Virus record (IMG/VR): IMGVR_UViG_3300035698_020241
Coordinates: 1 to 64,000 of that record
Direction: 5' to 3' (one strand)
DNA length: 64,000 nt
Origin: a virus
The notes under the pieces are model-generated. The model searched no databases. It was not told the origin of the DNA and saw only the letters and a program-made list of their open reading frames with translations. A program made the translations under genes and the position numbers. This document shows, in pieces, positions 768-62,043 of this stretch (its first letter is position 1; each line of letters begins with the position of its first letter).

Positions 768-3700
768 ATGACTGTAGGTACAGATGAATTTATAGCCGCA
801 ACAGATAAAAACACTTTAAAAGATTTATGTGATACCAAAGCTGTTGAAGCAGGAGTTGATGTAACTGGATTGAGTGATGTATCAGTAGGTGATTTAATAC
901 AAGCCTCATGGCATACAACACTTATTGATAAACATAATGATCTATCAGTTCTATCTAATGAAGAGGATTCTATACAAAGTACTGTATCCTCAGGTGATAT
1001 AATTACAGCAATTTTACACTCTACCATGTTGAGTCAATTGAATTCTATGACCTTTTTATTATTTCATGAATTTGAAAAGGTTGTCTGTGGTAATCATCAT
1101 TCAATGGCTATAGATGCTGACGGTGCAGGATGGTCATGGGGATATAATACTACTGGTCAGTTAGGAGATAATACATTAATTAGTAGGAGTATTCCAGTTT
1201 TAGTAGCTGGAGGTCATACATTTACAAAGATTGCCTGTGGTAATTATCACTCATTAGGAGTTGATTCTGCTGGTTCAGGATGGGCATGGGGAAATAATTT
1301 TTACGGGAATTTAGGAGATAATACAACTACTATTAAAAGTACTCCTGTTTCGGTTCATGGAGACCATATTTTTACAGAGATTGCAGGAGGAAATTCTTGT
1401 TCATTAGCTATAGATGTTAGTGGTGCAGGATGGGCATGGGGACATAATACTTACGGCCAATTAGGAGATAGCACAACTGTTAGTAAAAGCACTCCAGTTT
1501 CAGTTGTTGGAGGAAATGTATTTGAAAAGGTTGCCTGTGGTGATTATCATTCATTAGGAATTGATTCTGATGGTGCAGGATGGGCATGGGGACGTAATTC
1601 TTCCGGTCAGTTAGGAGATAACACAATAATTAATAAGAGCTCTCCAATTTCAGTTCATGGAGGACATGTATTTATAGAGATTGATTGTGGTGAATACCAT
1701 TCATTAGGAATTGATTCTGCTGGTGCAGGATGGGCATGGGGATATAATACTGTTGGTCAATTAGGAGATAATACAACTATTAATAAAAGCACTCCAATTT
1801 CGATTATTGGAGGTCATGTATTTGAAAATATTACAGGTGGTCGTCGTCATTCATTAGGAGTTGATTCTGCTGGTGCTGCCTGGGCATGGGGACGTAATAC
1901 TTATGGCCAATTAGGAGATGATACAGAAACAGATAGAAGTATTCCGGTTTCGGTTCATGGAGACCATATTTTTACAGAGATTTCAGGAGGGTATTCTCAC
2001 TCATTAGGAGTTGATTCTGCTGGTGCTGCCTGGGCATGGGGATATAATTTTTCTGGTCAGTTAGGAAATAATACAATAATTAATAAAAGTACGCCTGTTT
2101 CGGTACATAAAGGTTATGTGTTTGAAACAATAAATTGTGGTGATTATCATTCATTAGCTATTGATTCTGCTGGTGCAGGATGGGCATGGGGAAATAATAC
2201 TTACGGCCAATTAGGAGATAATACATTAACTAGTAGGAGTACTCCTGTTTCAGTTCATGGAGATCATGTATTTGAAAAAATTACCTGTGGTAGTAGTCAC
2301 TCATTAGGAGTTGATTCTGCTGGTGCTGCCTGGGCATGGGGACGTAATACTTATGGTCAGTTAGGAGATAATACAACTATTAGTAAAAGCACTCCAATTT
2401 CGATTATTGGAGGTCATGTATTTGAAAAGATTGCCTGTGGTGATTTTCATTCATTAGGAGTTGATTCTGCTGGTGCAGGATGGGCATGGGGTCATAATGG
2501 TTACGGACAGTTAGGAAATAATACATTTCTTTATAAGAGTATACCATTTTCAATAGTTGGAGGCCATGTTTTTACAGAGATTGCAGGAGGGTATTCTTAT
2601 TCATTAGGAGTTGATTCTGCTGGTGCAGGATGGGCATGGGGATATAATACTTATGGTCAATTAGGAGATAACACAACTGTTAGTAAAAACTCTCCTGTTT
2701 CTGTTATTGGAGAACATGTATTTGAAAAAATTGCCTGTGGTTATCAACATTCATTAGGAATTGATTCTGCTGGTGCTGCCTGGGCATGGGGACGTAATTC
2801 TTCCGGTCAGTTAGGAGACAATACATTAATTAATAAAAGTACTCCTGTTTCAGTAGTTGGAGAACATGTATTTGAAAAAATTGCTTGTGGTAGTTATAAT
2901 CATTCATTAGGAATTGATTCTGTTGGAGTAGGATGGTCATGGGGTCATAATGATTATGGTCAGTTAGGAGACAATACATTAATTAATAAAAGTATTCCTG
3001 TTTCAGTAATTGGAGAACATGAATTTACAGAGGTTTCAGGAGGGTATTCTCATTCATTAGGAGTTGATTTTGTTGGAGTAGCATGGGCATGGGGACATAA
3101 TACTTACGGCCAATTAGGAGATAATACAACTATTAGTAAGAGTAATCCTGTTTCCGTAATAATAAGAAATGTATTTACTAAAATTTCATCTTTTGGTGAA
3201 AGCACAATAGCCATAGATGTTAATGGTGCAGCATGGGCATGGGGAAATAATACTTACGGCCAATTAGGAGATAGCACAACTGTTAGTAGGAGTACTCCTG
3301 TTTCAGTTCACGGAGATCATGAATTTATAAAGATTAATAGTGGAAAATATCACTCATTAGGAATTGATTCTGACGGTGCAGGATGGGCATGGGGATATAA
3401 TACTACTGGTCAGTTAGGAGATAATACAGAAACAAATAGAAGTATTCCTGTTTTAATATCTGGAAGTCATGAATTTACGGAAATTTCTGGTGGTGATCAT
3501 CACTCATTAGGAATTGATTCTGATGGTGCAGGATGGGCATGGGGACTTAATACTTATGGCCAATTAGGAGATAATACAGAAACAAATAGAAGTATTCCAG
3601 TTTCGGTAGCTGGAGGTCATGAATTTACAGAGATTGCCGGTGGTTCTATTTATTCATTAACTATAGATGTTAGTGGTGGTGCCTGGGCATGGGGACGTAA

Positions 3701-4220
3701 TGATTATGGTCAATTAGGAGATAATACAATAATTAGTAAAAGCACTCCGGTTTCAGTTTACGGAGATCATATATTTAAAACAATAGATTCTGGTTATTAT
3801 CATTCATTAGGAGTTGATTCTGCTGGTGCAGGATGGACATGGGGATGGAACGATTTTGGTCAATTAGGAGATAACACAACTACTAGTAGGAGTACTCCAA
3901 TTTCGGTAGTTGGAGGACATGTATTTGAAAATATTACCTGTGGTTATCGTCATTCATTAGGAGTTGATTCTGCTGGTGCTGCCTGGGCATGGGGACGTAA
4001 TACTTATGGCCAATTAGGAGATAATACAGAAACAAATAGAAGTATTCCGGTTTCGGTACATAGAGGTTATGTAGTTGAAACAATAGATTGTGGTGATTTT
4101 CATTCATTAGCTATAGATTCTGTTGGAGTAGGATGGTCATGGGGTCATAATGATTATGGTCAGTTAGGAGACAATACATTAATTAATAAAAGTATTCCTG
4201 TTTCAGTACATAAAAATTAA
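768..4220 (+). CDS. Giant RCC1-repeat protein (probable beta-propeller adhesin)
   Basis: This 1150-residue protein has a unique N-terminal region of about 100 residues followed by 21 tandem RCC1-type repeats of about 50 residues. Each carries a version of 'CGxxHSLGIDSxGxGWAWGxNxxGQLGDNT', with WAWG and GQLGDN nearly invariant. RCC1 repeats normally fold as seven-bladed beta propellers, so 21 copies would make three. The start has a GGAG-type ribosome site (taggagatttttgatATG). Its place after a tail-fibre-like gene suggests a virion-surface or receptor-binding role, which is inference. The repeats are similar enough at DNA level to recombine. A short ORF directly after the stop continues in another frame and may be a lost C-terminal tail. 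Confidence 0.85.
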   Translation: MTVGTDEFIAATDKNTLKDLCDTKAVEAGVDVTGLSDVSVGDLIQASWHTTLIDKHNDLSVLSNEEDSIQSTVSSGDIITAILHSTMLSQLNSMTFLLFHEFEKVVCGNHHSMAIDADGAGWSWGYNTTGQLGDNTLISRSIPVLVAGGHTFTKIACGNYHSLGVDSAGSGWAWGNNFYGNLGDNTTTIKSTPVSVHGDHIFTEIAGGNSCSLAIDVSGAGWAWGHNTYGQLGDSTTVSKSTPVSVVGGNVFEKVACGDYHSLGIDSDGAGWAWGRNSSGQLGDNTIINKSSPISVHGGHVFIEIDCGEYHSLGIDSAGAGWAWGYNTVGQLGDNTTINKSTPISIIGGHVFENITGGRRHSLGVDSAGAAWAWGRNTYGQLGDDTETDRSIPVSVHGDHIFTEISGGYSHSLGVDSAGAAWAWGYNFSGQLGNNTIINKSTPVSVHKGYVFETINCGDYHSLAIDSAGAGWAWGNNTYGQLGDNTLTSRSTPVSVHGDHVFEKITCGSSHSLGVDSAGAAWAWGRNTYGQLGDNTTISKSTPISIIGGHVFEKIACGDFHSLGVDSAGAGWAWGHNGYGQLGNNTFLYKSIPFSIVGGHVFTEIAGGYSYSLGVDSAGAGWAWGYNTYGQLGDNTTVSKNSPVSVIGEHVFEKIACGYQHSLGIDSAGAAWAWGRNSSGQLGDNTLINKSTPVSVVGEHVFEKIACGSYNHSLGIDSVGVGWSWGHNDYGQLGDNTLINKSIPVSVIGEHEFTEVSGGYSHSLGVDFVGVAWAWGHNTYGQLGDNTTISKSNPVSVIIRNVFTKISSFGESTIAIDVNGAAWAWGNNTYGQLGDSTTVSRSTPVSVHGDHEFIKINSGKYHSLGIDSDGAGWAWGYNTTGQLGDNTETNRSIPVLISGSHEFTEISGGDHHSLGIDSDGAGWAWGLNTYGQLGDNTETNRSIPVSVAGGHEFTEIAGGSIYSLTIDVSGGAWAWGRNDYGQLGDNTIISKSTPVSVYGDHIFKTIDSGYYHSLGVDSAGAGWTWGWNDFGQLGDNTTTSRSTPISVVGGHVFENITCGYRHSLGVDSAGAAWAWGRNTYGQLGDNTETNRSIPVSVHRGYVVETIDCGDFHSLAIDSVGVGWSWGHNDYGQLGDNTLINKSIPVSVHKN
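1071..4217 (+). repeat. 21 tandem 150-bp coding repeats (RCC1 units)
   Basis: The segment repeats with a period of 150 bp (50 codons), marked by the recurring string gcatgggg. One unit has an extra codon near 2895. Some neighbouring or distant units are almost identical, for example the unit ending near 2955 and the last unit, which suggests recent recombination or gene conversion between units. Confidence 0.9.
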
Positions 4221-4394: not shown

Positions 4395-4423
4395 TTTACA
4401 AATATAAAATTTTAATGTATAAT
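4395..4423 (+). promoter_or_regulatory. Sigma70-like promoter
   Basis: TTTACA (4395-4400), a 17-bp spacer and TATAAT (4418-4423) lie 31 bp before the GTG start of the glycosyltransferase. The box sequences and spacing are the same as at ten other sites in the window. Confidence 0.8.
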
Positions 4424-57171: not shown

Positions 57172-57960
57172 TTAAGTATCTAATATCACCATAAGTTGTT
57201 CGTATGATATAATATCAATACCATATTTCCTCGCCTTTTTGGACTTACCACTCTGACTATCAGGATCATCAGTTACCAACATATTAACATCTTTACTTAT
57301 ACCCTTTACGGTTCCACCAAGAGATTCTATTTTCTTTTTAATAGCAGGTCTACTCATGTTTCCCTTACCTGTAAGAGTGAATTTCTTACCCTGTAATTTC
57401 TGTCCTACCTCAAACTTCAAACCTTGTTCAAGAAGAAATGTATATAATGGATAAAATTTACCACGATTTATAACAATGGATTCTGCTATAACCTCACCTA
57501 TACCATCTATATCCTCAAAGAAATCTTCATCATCTGAGAAAAATTGTAACATCATATCTTTAGGTGATATATCAGAATATGTATCACATATTGACTTACC
57601 AACCGATCTACCAACATTAGGCATTCCAAATGCTGATATCAGTTTATTTGGAGTAGTTCGTAATGTTCCTTGAATCTCATTAACGATCTGTTCTCCTCGT
57701 TTCATTCCGAAACCTTCTATCGTTGCAATTTCAAACTCATCAATCTCATACGCTTTCTGTATAGTGTTAATATTTAATTTCTTGAGGGTTTTTTCAGTTA
57801 TATACTCTGCTCCAAGGCGTACCAAAAAGTGTTCAACTTCTTTATAGGCTTTAGCAAGACAATCTACATTATTACATACCATATCAACACCTCTTGGAAC
57901 AGCACGGCCTCCACATGATGGACAAAATTCCGGAACATAATTAAAACCATTCATTTTCAT
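57172..57960 (-). CDS. ligA-C: NAD-dependent DNA ligase, C-terminal piece (Zn finger, HhH, BRCT)
   Basis: 262 residues. FCPSCGGRAVPRG and CNNVDCLAK form the four-Cys zinc finger. The helix-hairpin-helix set follows (IATIEGFGMKRGEQIV, ISAFGMPNVGRSVGKS, DIDGIGEVIAESI). The BRCT domain is LQGKKFTLTGKGNMSRPAIK to the end. It has everything of LigA after the OB fold and nothing before it. The ATG at 57960 has GAAAGGAT upstream and overlaps the stop of the GIY-YIG remnant (ATGA). It should act with ligA-N. Confidence 0.88.
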   Translation of the reverse strand: MKMNGFNYVPEFCPSCGGRAVPRGVDMVCNNVDCLAKAYKEVEHFLVRLGAEYITEKTLKKLNINTIQKAYEIDEFEIATIEGFGMKRGEQIVNEIQGTLRTTPNKLISAFGMPNVGRSVGKSICDTYSDISPKDMMLQFFSDDEDFFEDIDGIGEVIAESIVINRGKFYPLYTFLLEQGLKFEVGQKLQGKKFTLTGKGNMSRPAIKKKIESLGGTVKGISKDVNMLVTDDPDSQSGKSKKARKYGIDIISYEQLMVILDT

Positions 57961-58091
57961 ATCCTTTCACACATGTATCCCTTATTATTAGCATTACATT
58001 TATGGCCTTTTATTCTATCATTTAATGTTCTTATTGTTTGTCCTACGTAAGACTTTCCTGTAATTTTGTTTATTGATTTATATATTATCAT
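57957..58091 (-). pseudogene. GIY-YIG homing endonuclease remnant between ligase pieces
   Basis: A 44-residue ORF: MIIYKSINKITGKSYVGQT then RTLNDRIKGHK, followed soon by a stop. It corresponds only to the first strand pair of the GIY-YIG domain seen in the intact genes here and lacks the catalytic Glu and DNA-binding parts. It starts on the stop of ligA-N and ends on the start of ligA-C, both by ATGA, so it may now serve as a translational bridge. Confidence 0.82.
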
Positions 58092-59125
58092 TTATAAACC
58101 TTTGAAATGAAAGGTATTACATCACCAGATCTCTGGATATCAATCATTGATCCTTTACATATTTTATTCTCTTGGATGTATTTTGCATTATGACCTGTGG
58201 CCCTTTGTATACTAACACCGTTTATTATAATAGTTTTAACAATAACTGTTGGAATTATTCTTCCAGTTCGTGAGGTATTCCATTCAACATCTATAACCTC
58301 TGTTTTAACACCTTTTTCATTTACTTTGAACGCTATTTTATTTTCAGGATAAAGAACATCCTCTCTTACATAATTGTCAGGTGTAATAACAAGACCATCA
58401 ATATCTTTCAGGTGAGATTTACACATCGTCAAGAAGTCTGTTAAAGATTCTATAACATCTGGAGAATTTGACATATGCATAATATTAGGAGTTTTCAATC
58501 CCATACTTTGCATCAATGTGAATTTGCTTATTTCACTATCATGTTCAACAGAACCCCCATCAAGTATCTCATAGAAGTATGGAACTATATATTTTGCATT
58601 CTTTATACCATCTTTATTCAGTATACCTGCAGTGCCATTTCTACGAGTTTTAAATCCAAGTTTCTTATGTGTGTCTCCTATCAACATAGCTTCACATCTG
58701 AAGGAAAAGTTATGTTTAAGATTTTTTATAACAGGACAGAACATCTTTGCCTTATCTGTTATATCACTACCCTGATAGCCATCACCTCTGGTTGTAGCAG
58801 AAATAACCTTACCGTCTTTAAATCCATATGTAACCATGAAACTTACACCATCAAGTTTTTCTGATATACAATGTGGTCCTGGGTGTTTCTCAATCCACTT
58901 TTCTATTGTATCCGTCTTTTTTTTATGAAGGCTGCCGAGTACAAAAGGTAGGTCTACCTTTTTACCAGAAATAGGAGCACCAATATCATCAAAGTAAGGA
59001 TGGTCAGGTCTTATAGCCCTTGCCTTATCTTTCAAATCATCATAATCGGCGTCTGTTATTTCAACATCACCGTTATAATAGGCATCATCGTGTTCCTTTA
59101 AGGTTCTTATCATCAAATCAAACAT
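58088..59125 (-). CDS. ligA-N: NAD-dependent DNA ligase, N-terminal piece (Ia, adenylation, OB)
   Basis: 345 residues. The NMN-binding Ia domain has YYNGDVEITDADYDDLKDKA. The adenylated Lys is K90 in ISEKLDGVS. GDGYQGSDIT, FRCEAMLIG and IDGLVITPDN are later nucleotidyltransferase motifs, and IDIQRSGDVIPFISKVYK ends the OB fold. The protein stops exactly where LigA continues into the zinc finger. It can probably self-adenylate; full nick sealing would need the C-terminal piece. Confidence 0.9.
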   Translation of the reverse strand: MFDLMIRTLKEHDDAYYNGDVEITDADYDDLKDKARAIRPDHPYFDDIGAPISGKKVDLPFVLGSLHKKKTDTIEKWIEKHPGPHCISEKLDGVSFMVTYGFKDGKVISATTRGDGYQGSDITDKAKMFCPVIKNLKHNFSFRCEAMLIGDTHKKLGFKTRRNGTAGILNKDGIKNAKYIVPYFYEILDGGSVEHDSEISKFTLMQSMGLKTPNIMHMSNSPDVIESLTDFLTMCKSHLKDIDGLVITPDNYVREDVLYPENKIAFKVNEKGVKTEVIDVEWNTSRTGRIIPTVIVKTIIINGVSIQRATGHNAKYIQENKICKGSMIDIQRSGDVIPFISKVYK

Positions 59126-59134
59126 CTTATCTCC

Positions 59135-59476
59135 TTAGTGTAACCCATCTACAAGTCCTAATGAACTTGCAATAATCAACCAACCTTGTATATCAGTTAA
59201 ACCTTCACTAACAAACCATTCAACAGCTTTATATGGAAAATCCCTTAAAAATTCATCTTTCAAAATTTTATAATTCTGAGAATTTATTAACTCTAATATT
59301 GTTATACCGTTATCATCGGCGATCATTTTATTTAATTGTTTCTTATTTGACAACCCTTTAAATTTTTCACCAAATTTTTCACCGATTCTATCCGATTCTT
59401 CATTTGTCATGTTATTAAGAGTAACAATAGCCGCTCTTAATTCAAAAACATTATAAGGTATTTCCATCTTTTCCAT
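59135..59476 (-). CDS. Hypothetical protein
   Basis: 113 residues, all-helical (VFELRAAIVTLNNMTNEES, ILELINSQNYKILKDEFL), ending LIIASSLGLVDGLH. Not recognised. GGAGAG ribosome site. Confidence 0.58.
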   Translation of the reverse strand: MEKMEIPYNVFELRAAIVTLNNMTNEESDRIGEKFGEKFKGLSNKKQLNKMIADDNGITILELINSQNYKILKDEFLRDFPYKAVEWFVSEGLTDIQGWLIIASSLGLVDGLH

Positions 59477-59492: not shown

Positions 59493-60251
59493 TTAAACTA
59501 TATCTATATCAGAGTTTCTATCTTTTCCATCTTTTCCATCCTTTTCATCACCATATACTTCTCTTTTATGATATACATCTTCAAGTTCTTTACAAAGAAC
59601 CCTTTTTATTTTTTTTAAGTCTCCTACTTTCATATCATCCAGTTGATCATCATACATAAGTCTTTTTATAGTTGAGTCTACAACTGCTTGTCTACCCTTT
59701 GACTCACCTAATTCACCTACTGCAGAAAGAGAACGAACCGTGGCTTCCACAGAGTCACATATCATCAAAACGGCTGCCTCTATACTTTGAGGAGGACTAC
59801 ACTTATATCTGAATAAATCCTCTGGAATATCAGGGTTTATATCTATTGCCTTTTTATAAAAAAATTGTAGTACAGTACTACCATGATGCTGTGCGATTAT
59901 ATTCATCACATCCATTGGCATATCTTTTATATCCAAAAGCATAACAACACTATCACCAACATGTCTTGTAAGTATCTGATAAGATAATATAGGATCAATG
60001 TTTTCATGAATATTTTTCCCACCATTCTGATTCTCACTGAAAGCCTCAGGATAATTTATTTTACCTATATCATGGTAATGTGCCGCAACAAGTAAAGTAT
60101 CAACATCAAGTCCTAGTTTCAAAGCAACACTTTCACAAAAACTAGCAACATTCTTACAATGTTTAAAGGTACCAGGTGCTACCTCTCTAAATTTTTCAAG
60201 TAAGGGATACTTTGAATCCAAAAATTTTTTAATATCTACCTTGTCTGGCAT
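59493..60251 (-). CDS. Soluble PgpH-type HD phosphohydrolase, possible cyclic-dinucleotide phosphodiesterase
   Basis: 252 residues. The HD core reads GTFKHCKNVASFCES (H31), AHYHDIGKINYPEAFSENQ (H60-D61), NIHENIDPILSYQIL, IIAQHHGSTVLQFFYKKA, LFRYKCSPPQS, and MICDSVEATVRSLS. The block from GTFKH to the C-terminal LEDVYHKREVYG follows the cytoplasmic HD domain of 7TMR-HD proteins such as PgpH, which cut c-di-AMP. The membrane and extracellular parts of PgpH are absent. A role in lowering host c-di-AMP or disarming a nucleotide-signalled defence is inference. It has its own promoter. Confidence 0.78.
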   Translation of the reverse strand: MPDKVDIKKFLDSKYPLLEKFREVAPGTFKHCKNVASFCESVALKLGLDVDTLLVAAHYHDIGKINYPEAFSENQNGGKNIHENIDPILSYQILTRHVGDSVVMLLDIKDMPMDVMNIIAQHHGSTVLQFFYKKAIDINPDIPEDLFRYKCSPPQSIEAAVLMICDSVEATVRSLSAVGELGESKGRQAVVDSTIKRLMYDDQLDDMKVGDLKKIKRVLCKELEDVYHKREVYGDEKDGKDGKDRNSDIDIV

Positions 60252-60294
60252 TTTGTTTGCTCCTTTTCATTTAATTTCTATACCTATTACTTTT

Positions 60295-60323
60295 ATTATA
60301 TCACAGTGATCCTGTCTTGTAAA
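60295..60323 (-). promoter_or_regulatory. Sigma70-like promoter for the HD phosphohydrolase
   Basis: TTTACA (60323-60318), 17 bp, TATAAT (60300-60295). The -35 box begins at the end of the upstream terminator's T run. Confidence 0.8.
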
Positions 60324-60350
60324 CCAAAAAAACCGTAGTAATCCACGGTT
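60324..60350 (-). terminator. Terminator after the tRNA genes
   Basis: On the minus strand AACCGT, an 8-nt loop and ACGGTT are followed by TTTTT and GG. It ends the tRNA transcript just before the next promoter. Confidence 0.72.
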
Positions 60351-61317: not shown

Positions 61318-61455
61318 TTATTTCTTCTCCTTTTTCATTTCTTCTACTTTACATTTATGGAAAAAATTACCAAATAATTGGAAAATTCCAATCCATCCTA
61401 TTTGTTCACCACATGATTGACAACACCAACTATTATATTTTACATTCTTCATCAT
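61318..61455 (-). CDS. Small zinc-ribbon-like protein
   Basis: 45 residues beginning MMKNVKYNSWCCQSCGEQIG, with a third Cys region FFHKCKVEEM. It starts on the stop of the upstream HD gene (TAATG) and ends one base before the next ATG, so it is part of a tightly packed operon. Its C-terminal codons carry the AAGGAG site of the next gene. Confidence 0.6.
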   Translation of the reverse strand: MMKNVKYNSWCCQSCGEQIGWIGIFQLFGNFFHKCKVEEMKKEKK

Positions 61456-61994
61456 TAAAATCTATAAACCGTTGATTTTTCAGGTATTAATACATTTTCA
61501 TCTGGACCTAAAGTATTGATAACACTTGCTGAGTATGCCCAATCTATTACACTCTGCTTTTTACCTTCATGGGTACAAAGTTTTTTCGGATCTGGTCTAT
61601 AACCAACACGGCCAAGGTCAAGTCTATCCATATCCCAGCATGTCGTAATAGTGACATCATGAGATCGTGTTCCACCCATATTATGATGTTTAATGGCATA
61701 CATTAAACAATCAATTTGCTTATGTGTATATTCTTTAAGTTCATATTTGAGTAAAGACGCAACATATCTTGCACCTCTTATACCATGGAAATCGTCAGGA
61801 CCTTCTGTTACTCTTTGTGAATCATGGAGTAAAGCGAACAAATCACAAACATCTTGATCTGCTCCTGTCAAAGGTGCAAGGTATCTACCTATCCTTAACA
61901 CTCTGGACCAGTGGGACATACCATGTGTACCTTCAATTCTCAGTCTATATTGACCCAGCACTTTTGACATTATACTATTTGTATCAACTGACAT
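61455..61994 (-). CDS. HD-domain hydrolase
   Basis: 179 residues. THGMSHWSRVLRIGRYLA (H28), LFALLHDSQRVTEGPDD (H57-D58), IKHHNMG and TTCWDMDRLDLGRVG (late Asp) give a complete HD metal site. It is distinct from the PgpH-like gene and resembles small HD proteins of unknown substrate, perhaps nucleotides. It is the first gene behind a promoter. Confidence 0.76.
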   Translation of the reverse strand: MSVDTNSIMSKVLGQYRLRIEGTHGMSHWSRVLRIGRYLAPLTGADQDVCDLFALLHDSQRVTEGPDDFHGIRGARYVASLLKYELKEYTHKQIDCLMYAIKHHNMGGTRSHDVTITTCWDMDRLDLGRVGYRPDPKKLCTHEGKKQSVIDWAYSASVINTLGPDENVLIPEKSTVYRF

Positions 61995-62014: not shown

Positions 62015-62043
62015 ATTATACATGGTTTTATTCAAAATGTAAA
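62015..62043 (-). promoter_or_regulatory. Sigma70-like promoter
   Basis: TTTACA (62043-62038), 17 bp, TATAAT (62020-62015). It drives the HD hydrolase operon that runs down to the tRNAs. Confidence 0.8.

Follow-up and report, generated by a model that had tools for sequence, protein, structure and literature searches.

A membrane-free PgpH-type HD protein from a virus with T4-type replication genes, a candidate cyclic-dinucleotide phosphodiesterase

The stretch of DNA analysed here (the window, 64,000 nucleotides) covers positions 1 to 64,000 of IMG/VR virus record IMGVR_UViG_3300035698_020241, which is 126,240 bases long. Upstream of a pair of DNA ligase ORFs lies a gene for an HD-domain protein (Table 1), for which the first-pass annotation gave coordinates that match exactly and no strand; the gene is read from the minus strand, and the plus strand across the same interval is crowded with stop codons. 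The full open frame amounts to only 257 amino acids, its maximum 19-residue hydropathy is 1.27, and the DNA directly ahead of it is taken up by a Shine-Dalgarno site, a promoter-like site, a hairpin and tRNA-Leu, all of which bears out the earlier claim that the protein has no membrane part. The two motifs named at that stage, KHC (which contains H31) and a C-terminal Y-H-K-R-x-x-Y (residues 227-233), are both present. The observation of a soluble PgpH-type HD reading frame is confirmed, and chance is excluded as its source.

Table 1. Features at the HD locus, with positions numbered from the first letter of the window.
Feature	Position	Strand	Details
Terminator-like hairpin and T run, between tRNA-Leu and the HD unit	60331..60350	-	
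Sigma70-type promoter motif TTTACA-N17-TATAAT, ahead of the HD gene	60295..60323	-	sequence motif
Shine-Dalgarno AGGAG	60260..60264	-	8 nt before ATG; read from sequence
Soluble PgpH-type HD phosphodiesterase (predicted)	59493..60251	-	252 aa; ATG 60251, stop 59493; ligands H31, H60, D61, H97, H122, H123, D166
113-aa ORF, no Pfam/PHROG match of weight	59135..59476	-	16 nt past HD stop
NAD-dependent DNA ligase, adenylation and OB, 345 aa	58088..59125	-	Pfam DNA_ligase_aden, DNA_ligase_OB; phrog_3869 3.8e-73
NAD-dependent DNA ligase, HhH and BRCT, 262 aa	57172..57960	-	Pfam BRCT, HHH; phrog_3869, phrog_3498

The HD gene, the 113-aa ORF and the N-terminal part of the ligase stand in a row, separated by 16 and 9 nt, and the latter two likely share an operon with the HD gene. 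The ligase is split into two ORFs in the window and forms one ORF of ~600 aa in relatives such as L120. Upstream of the HD gene, the order is tRNA-Leu, terminator-like hairpin and the motif TTTACA-N17-TATAAT. Terminator-like sites number 8 in 9 kb versus 3.5 in shuffles, and exact copies of the promoter motif number 8 in the window versus 0.08 expected, a comparison in which the motif was chosen after it had been sighted at the HD gene. These copies (positions 4395, 6120, 16103, 39452, 46567, 54010, 60295 and 62015) share the strand of the genes around them, and the motif, judged from its sequence, probably marks a class of promoters in this phage. TTTACA is found upstream of the HD gene in all six aligned loci (the window together with L008, L010, L012, L015 and L120, close relatives picked for good scores), and among the 44 loci scored for the viral family as a whole an upstream sigma70 site is not general (mean rank fraction 0.60). 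Since the motif precedes the HD gene, we infer that the gene is expressed early by host RNA polymerase. The copy at 62015-62043 (minus strand) belongs to another HD-domain ORF, of a different kind (61455-61994, minus strand), for which Roseobacter phages CRP-901/902 and Vibrio phages carry relatives at 40-47%.

A scan with a neighbouring gene gave 36 loci of the phage lineage, with the HD gene within the fetched flank in 16, elsewhere on the record for L163 (the same contig as L021) and as a contig-end fragment in L149; the records of the remaining 18 loci, many of them short and the largest 155,948 bases, carry none. Where at least 8 kb lies upstream, the gene was found there in 13 of 20 loci. 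The HD gene is thus common, not universal, in its phage lineage. It stands just upstream of the ligase in every neighbour-scan locus that holds both genes (10/10, two of them near-identical), and the three ligase-only loci have less than 1 kb between the ligase and the upstream contig end. Counting the window, 46 loci were inspected, and 11 of them have a ligase gene within their flanks. HNH ORFs and ORFs resembling glycosyltransferases and ssDNA-binding proteins also recur nearby, as labelled by sequence reading.

Comparison with solved structures places the protein in one branch of the HD superfamily. Pfam HD (9.8e-17) and NCBIfam HDIG (1.2e-14) match it, and in a phmmer search of the PDB residues 14-235 align with the HD domain of Lmo1466, the PgpH of Listeria (4s1b/4s1c), at E 1e-37, with 0.2 for the second-best match; a profile of the viral family gave 4.9e-58 for the same domain and 0.02 for the next. 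The comparison of a predicted structure with the PgpH HD domain that the first-pass annotation proposed was run on an AlphaFold2 model (43 aligned rows, pLDDT 92.8, pTM 0.87), in which only the acidic C-terminal tail from about residue 235 has low confidence. Foldseek matched the model to 4s1b/4s1c at E ~1e-14 with target TM 0.94-0.95, followed by an HD-GYP protein at 4e-3, and VIA gave Z 31.1 and 31.0 at 1.2 and 1.5 A for the pair 4S1B/4S1C, the next family being HD-GYP at Z 13.2. In the BFVD structure library there is no viral match at E <=0.001, the best being Bacillus phage G gp79 at 0.012. As evidence against its proposal the annotation had named a better fit to some HD family that acts on a different substrate; such a fit was sought by Pfam, NCBIfam, phmmer, Foldseek, VIA and the profile, and none was found. 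For example, HD-GYP phosphodiesterases, including those predicted in jumbo phages (PMC7824862), share with the phage protein the HD superfamily, cyclic-dinucleotide hydrolysis and a predicted anti-signal role; unlike them, the phage protein lacks the GYP triad (STVLQFF follows HHG), and their profile matches are at 0.02 or weaker. Likewise, the alarmone hydrolases of jumbo phages (SpoT/MESH1-type) belong to the same superfamily, and sometimes adjoin a PgpH-type gene, but fall in Pfam family HD_4 and act on another substrate class; HD_4 gave no match to the phage protein at E up to 1, the Pfam models listed being HD, HD_5, HDOD and Cas3_HD. A Cas3'' HD nuclease was rejected as well, with 24.9 bits for the NCBIfam cas3_HD model versus a curated cut-off of 43.45 and only weak PADLOC Cas3 models.

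Likeness to PgpH (7TMR-HD) extends over the whole HD domain at 36-38% identity, and the phage protein also holds the ENQ, N80/H82, RY, D166xxEA and RxxY motifs. What it lacks is the 7TMR-HDED part and the membrane helices, and it is phage-borne and falls in a clade of its own. We call it PgpH-type rather than PgpH because the membrane feature of PgpH proper is missing.

The metal ligands reported for PgpH are H514, H543, D544, H580, H604, H605 and D648 (PMC8177086), and they map in this order to the seven ligands listed in Table 1, seven of seven. All are kept in 51/51 viral sequences (46 distinct); the same positions are fixed in the 80 bacterial rows of our alignment, save that position 123 has Q in 4 rows and H in the other 76. 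Residues found across PgpH, namely E73, N74, H82, S90, Y149, Q203 and R230, likewise hold in the viral proteins. Such complete retention is needless for a sponge or sensor that binds c-di-AMP without cutting it, and although phage cyclic-nucleotide sponges are known (Acb2 and Acb4, PMC12657230), we regard this role as very unlikely here. Because the metal site and the fold of PgpH are intact, the best reading of the phage protein is a cyclic-dinucleotide phosphodiesterase, most likely for c-di-AMP, as judged from the sequence and the model; hydrolysis of c-di-AMP is the most likely activity, given that residues invariant about the metal centre in bacterial PgpH are invariant in the viral proteins too.

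Some positions do depart from the bacterial pattern. Position 101, four residues past ligand H97, is Gly in 80/80 bacterial sequences and Ser in 29, Thr in 13 and Gly in 9 of the 51 viral ones; loops 136-139 and 179-182 differ from those of bacteria; and the C-terminal H228 is replaced by Q, S or Y in 16/51 viral sequences. Position 101 and the two loops suggest that the substrate may have shifted. One possibility is a hydrolase that keeps the PgpH fold and acts on linear dinucleotides, RNA ends or modified nucleotides of phage DNA or RNA metabolism. The substrates of HD domains vary widely (PMC8177086), and the gene is grouped with DNA ligase and replication genes. This possibility appears improbable, however, as no other HD family scores near PgpH and most of the residues that surround the metal site in bacterial PgpH are also fixed in the phage clade, as is expected for the same substrate.

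Relatives of the protein are numerous among uncultivated viruses. Scanning viral records with this one protein as query returned none, and alignment-based scans of IMG/VR recovered 27 + 23 = 50 further records that encode the soluble protein, on contigs of 5 to 315 kb. An HD model detects the gene in 51/51 carrier records, the window's own included; most of these records are probably fragments. Viral frames run from 227 to 280 aa (that of L009 ends at a contig end), and the highest 19-residue hydropathy among all of them is 1.63. Record G027 (L034, 228 kb) has two diverged copies, at 57732-58457 and 74117-74827, the first adjoining a SpoT/MESH1-like HD_4 gene. A further scan match, L035, was excluded from the family as an HD-GYP-like protein. 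In PHROGs, one unnamed family matches 8/24 viral members at 2.8e-5 or weaker and there is no good family, and the 'Plasmids' collection gave 12 matching records with identity <=38%.

For the bacterial side, the best 80 of 400 confirmed genome-scan matches were taken, ranked by similarity to the query, a choice that favours the nearest kin. Even so selected, the best 80 of 400 reach identities to the phage protein of <=41%, and in 78 of these 80 the frame carries four or more hydrophobic segments ahead of the HD domain, so that nearly all are plainly anchored in the membrane; the exceptions are L068, a short frame with 2 segments, and L101, on a cut contig. In an unrooted IQ-TREE phylogeny of 104 rows, a single branch splits the 24 viral from the 80 bacterial sequences (best 80 of 400) with support of 100/100 and presence in 100% of bootstrap trees. 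These bacterial rows come from many phyla, including Bacillota, Bacteroidota, Planctomycetota, Cyanobacteriota and Spirochaetota, and none is nested on the viral side.

This separation bears on whether the gene belongs to a phage at all, rather than stemming from contaminating bacterial DNA or from a host gene picked up recently. The worry is a real one, in that the 'phages' collection does contain bacterial PgpH operons under phage names. When the window's HD protein was compared by tblastn with 50,697 phage records, 9 records matched, and the divergent L140 and L034 proteins as queries each matched 8 of the same 9; no genuine carrier emerged from these 50,697 records of sequenced phages, six of the nine matches having been examined and the other three being short and Listeria-named. 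L002, L003, L005 and L006 (OR846595, MT835511, OR848126 and MT837542) are bacterial chromosome under phage names with full membrane PgpH frames, three of them adjoining genes that we take from their sequences to be YbeY and Era. L007 has a cut PgpH frame followed by YbeY and Era (names again read from sequence) and is bacterial, and L004 is an HD-GYP protein in bacterial DNA filed as phage. Such misfiled pieces of bacterial PgpH are a trap in phage homology searches. The present gene, by contrast, sits in a 126-kb virus record with T4-type UvsX and gp41, its carriers include 15 of 51 records with the major capsid protein Gp23, it shares neighbours in many phages, and the viral sequences stand apart as one clade. 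A non-phage origin is excluded as far as present data reach. Among the matches listed, UvsX and gp41 of this record show 24-29% and 27-32% identity to cultured phages, and none of these is near enough for host prediction.

A diadenylate cyclase domain was found on 0/51 carrier records, with a positive control detected in 11/14 genomes, and the substrate would therefore have to come from the host. In many bacteria c-di-AMP is a housekeeping messenger and is often essential. We consider the best explanation, at a probability of roughly 55%, to be that the protein is a soluble PgpH-type, metal-dependent HD enzyme that linearises host c-di-AMP during infection; homology, fold, the complete metal site, the absence of membrane segments, the phage context and conservation as a phage family are established here, and from them the activity, the substrate, early timing and a benefit for the phage are predicted. 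The gene would have descended from the cytoplasmic domain of PgpH, or would share a common ancestor with it. Transcribed from a sigma70-type phage promoter, probably early and together with the phage ligase genes, it would yield a soluble dinuclear-metal enzyme that cuts the 3',3'-c-di-AMP of the host to pApA and so collapses the messenger. The chemistry would follow PgpH, where a pair of metals holds the scissile phosphate and activates a water molecule, yielding pApA (PMC8177086, PMC12072042). Having no membrane sensor part, the phage enzyme would escape the control that the host exerts on PgpH and drain c-di-AMP. Host metabolism and ion balance might in this way be freed from c-di-AMP control, or a nucleotide signal of defence might be removed.

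The latter benefit leads to an alternative in which the ordinary c-di-AMP pool is irrelevant and the true target is a defence signal, such as 3',3'-cGAMP or similar molecules of CBASS, 2',3'-c-di-AMP of Panoptes or the signals of type III CRISPR systems. Phage enzymes with such a purpose exist. Acb1, which counters CBASS, has a 2H fold and metal-free chemistry and in these respects differs from the phage HD protein. Like that protein it is a phage enzyme, and Acb1 of T4 has been assayed on both 3',3'- and 2',3'-c-di-AMP, the loss of the latter triggering Panoptes (PMC12657230). The remark made at first pass that known anti-CBASS proteins belong to other folds agrees with the descriptions of Acb1 and Apyc1 in the literature covered. 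According to section 3.4.8 of PMC7824862, jumbo phages are predicted to counter nucleotide signals with phosphodiesterases of the HD-GYP, HD-alarmone, DHH, calcineurin-like and 2H types; the section does not mention HD proteins of the PgpH type. In the open-licence PMC literature covered, the phage counters to cyclic nucleotides have other folds or come from other HD branches, none being PgpH-type, and titles and opening abstracts hold no description of a phage PgpH-type protein. Phage HD enzymes directed against nucleotides are not wholly new, because the HD-GYP and alarmone types have been predicted in jumbo phages (PMC7824862). The fold and chemistry of the present family are already known; its setting, its architecture and its separate clade are new.

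Gene neighbours of the viral relatives are relevant to the same alternative. HD_4 (SpoT/MESH1-like) domains occur on 14/51 carrier records at E up to 0.001, 8 of them above the Pfam cut-off, and in 11 distinct viruses HD_4 lies closer to the PgpH-type gene than expected if genes were placed uniformly (Fisher p 0.0019, exploratory; p 0.0009 without two relatives of one virus). G020, G023, G027 and G044 drive this result, there is no closeness in G016, G026 and G050, and it should be regarded as exploratory only because phage genes cluster by timing anyway. A cREC cluster is found at 5/28 loci and a NADAR cluster at 4/28 (near-copies counted, HD-carrying loci only), with one member of each confirmed by Pfam. 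The adjacency of relatives to these predicted nucleotide-signal enzymes is consistent with an anti-defence role, and the replacement of Gly 101 might reflect an altered specificity. However, HD_4-type, cREC and NADAR enzymes are common in jumbo phages and the counts come from HD-carrying loci alone; PgpH is reported to be specific for c-di-AMP among cyclic dinucleotides (PMC8177086); and the near-fixed spot beside the ligase in one sub-lineage looks more like part of a standing replication block than like a mobile anti-defence gene. The first-pass interpretation is supported in part: a soluble PgpH-type HD protein with an intact metal site stands, and no result here favours CBASS over ordinary host c-di-AMP as the target. 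We judge a dedicated defence target unlikely, if the foremost of the alternatives to hydrolysis of the host's own c-di-AMP.

A broader proposal, which we put forward tentatively and at somewhat below even odds, is that the viral proteins have long formed a family of soluble c-di-AMP phosphodiesterases specific to phages. With them, and in some cases with a (p)ppGpp-type hydrolase alongside, large T4-like phages would shut off a host housekeeping messenger that is normally essential, at an early stage of infection. If so, this would be a viral takeover of the second-messenger state that goes beyond immune evasion alone, and a guard system of the host that, like Panoptes, monitors molecules resembling c-di-AMP could detect such phages. 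A viral PgpH-type clade with a full catalytic centre would show that phages also attack c-di-AMP. The phage PgpH-type proteins are candidate triggers or targets of guard systems such as Panoptes, and the protein of the window may offer a compact soluble enzyme with which to probe the importance of c-di-AMP for phage growth.

Two minor observations concern other genes of these phages. ORFs for cytochrome c7/class III cytochrome are present in relatives at L023:5129-5431, L028:4148-4707 and L123:3010-3303 (Pfam on these three) and at L128:3712-3999 (by clustering); they hint that some phages of the HD family carry electron-transfer genes and that the few related phages bearing cytochrome c7 may infect metal- or sulfate-reducing hosts. 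Near its start, at 768-4220 on the plus strand, the window encodes a repeat-rich protein of 1150 aa, with repeats that are presumably RCC1-like.
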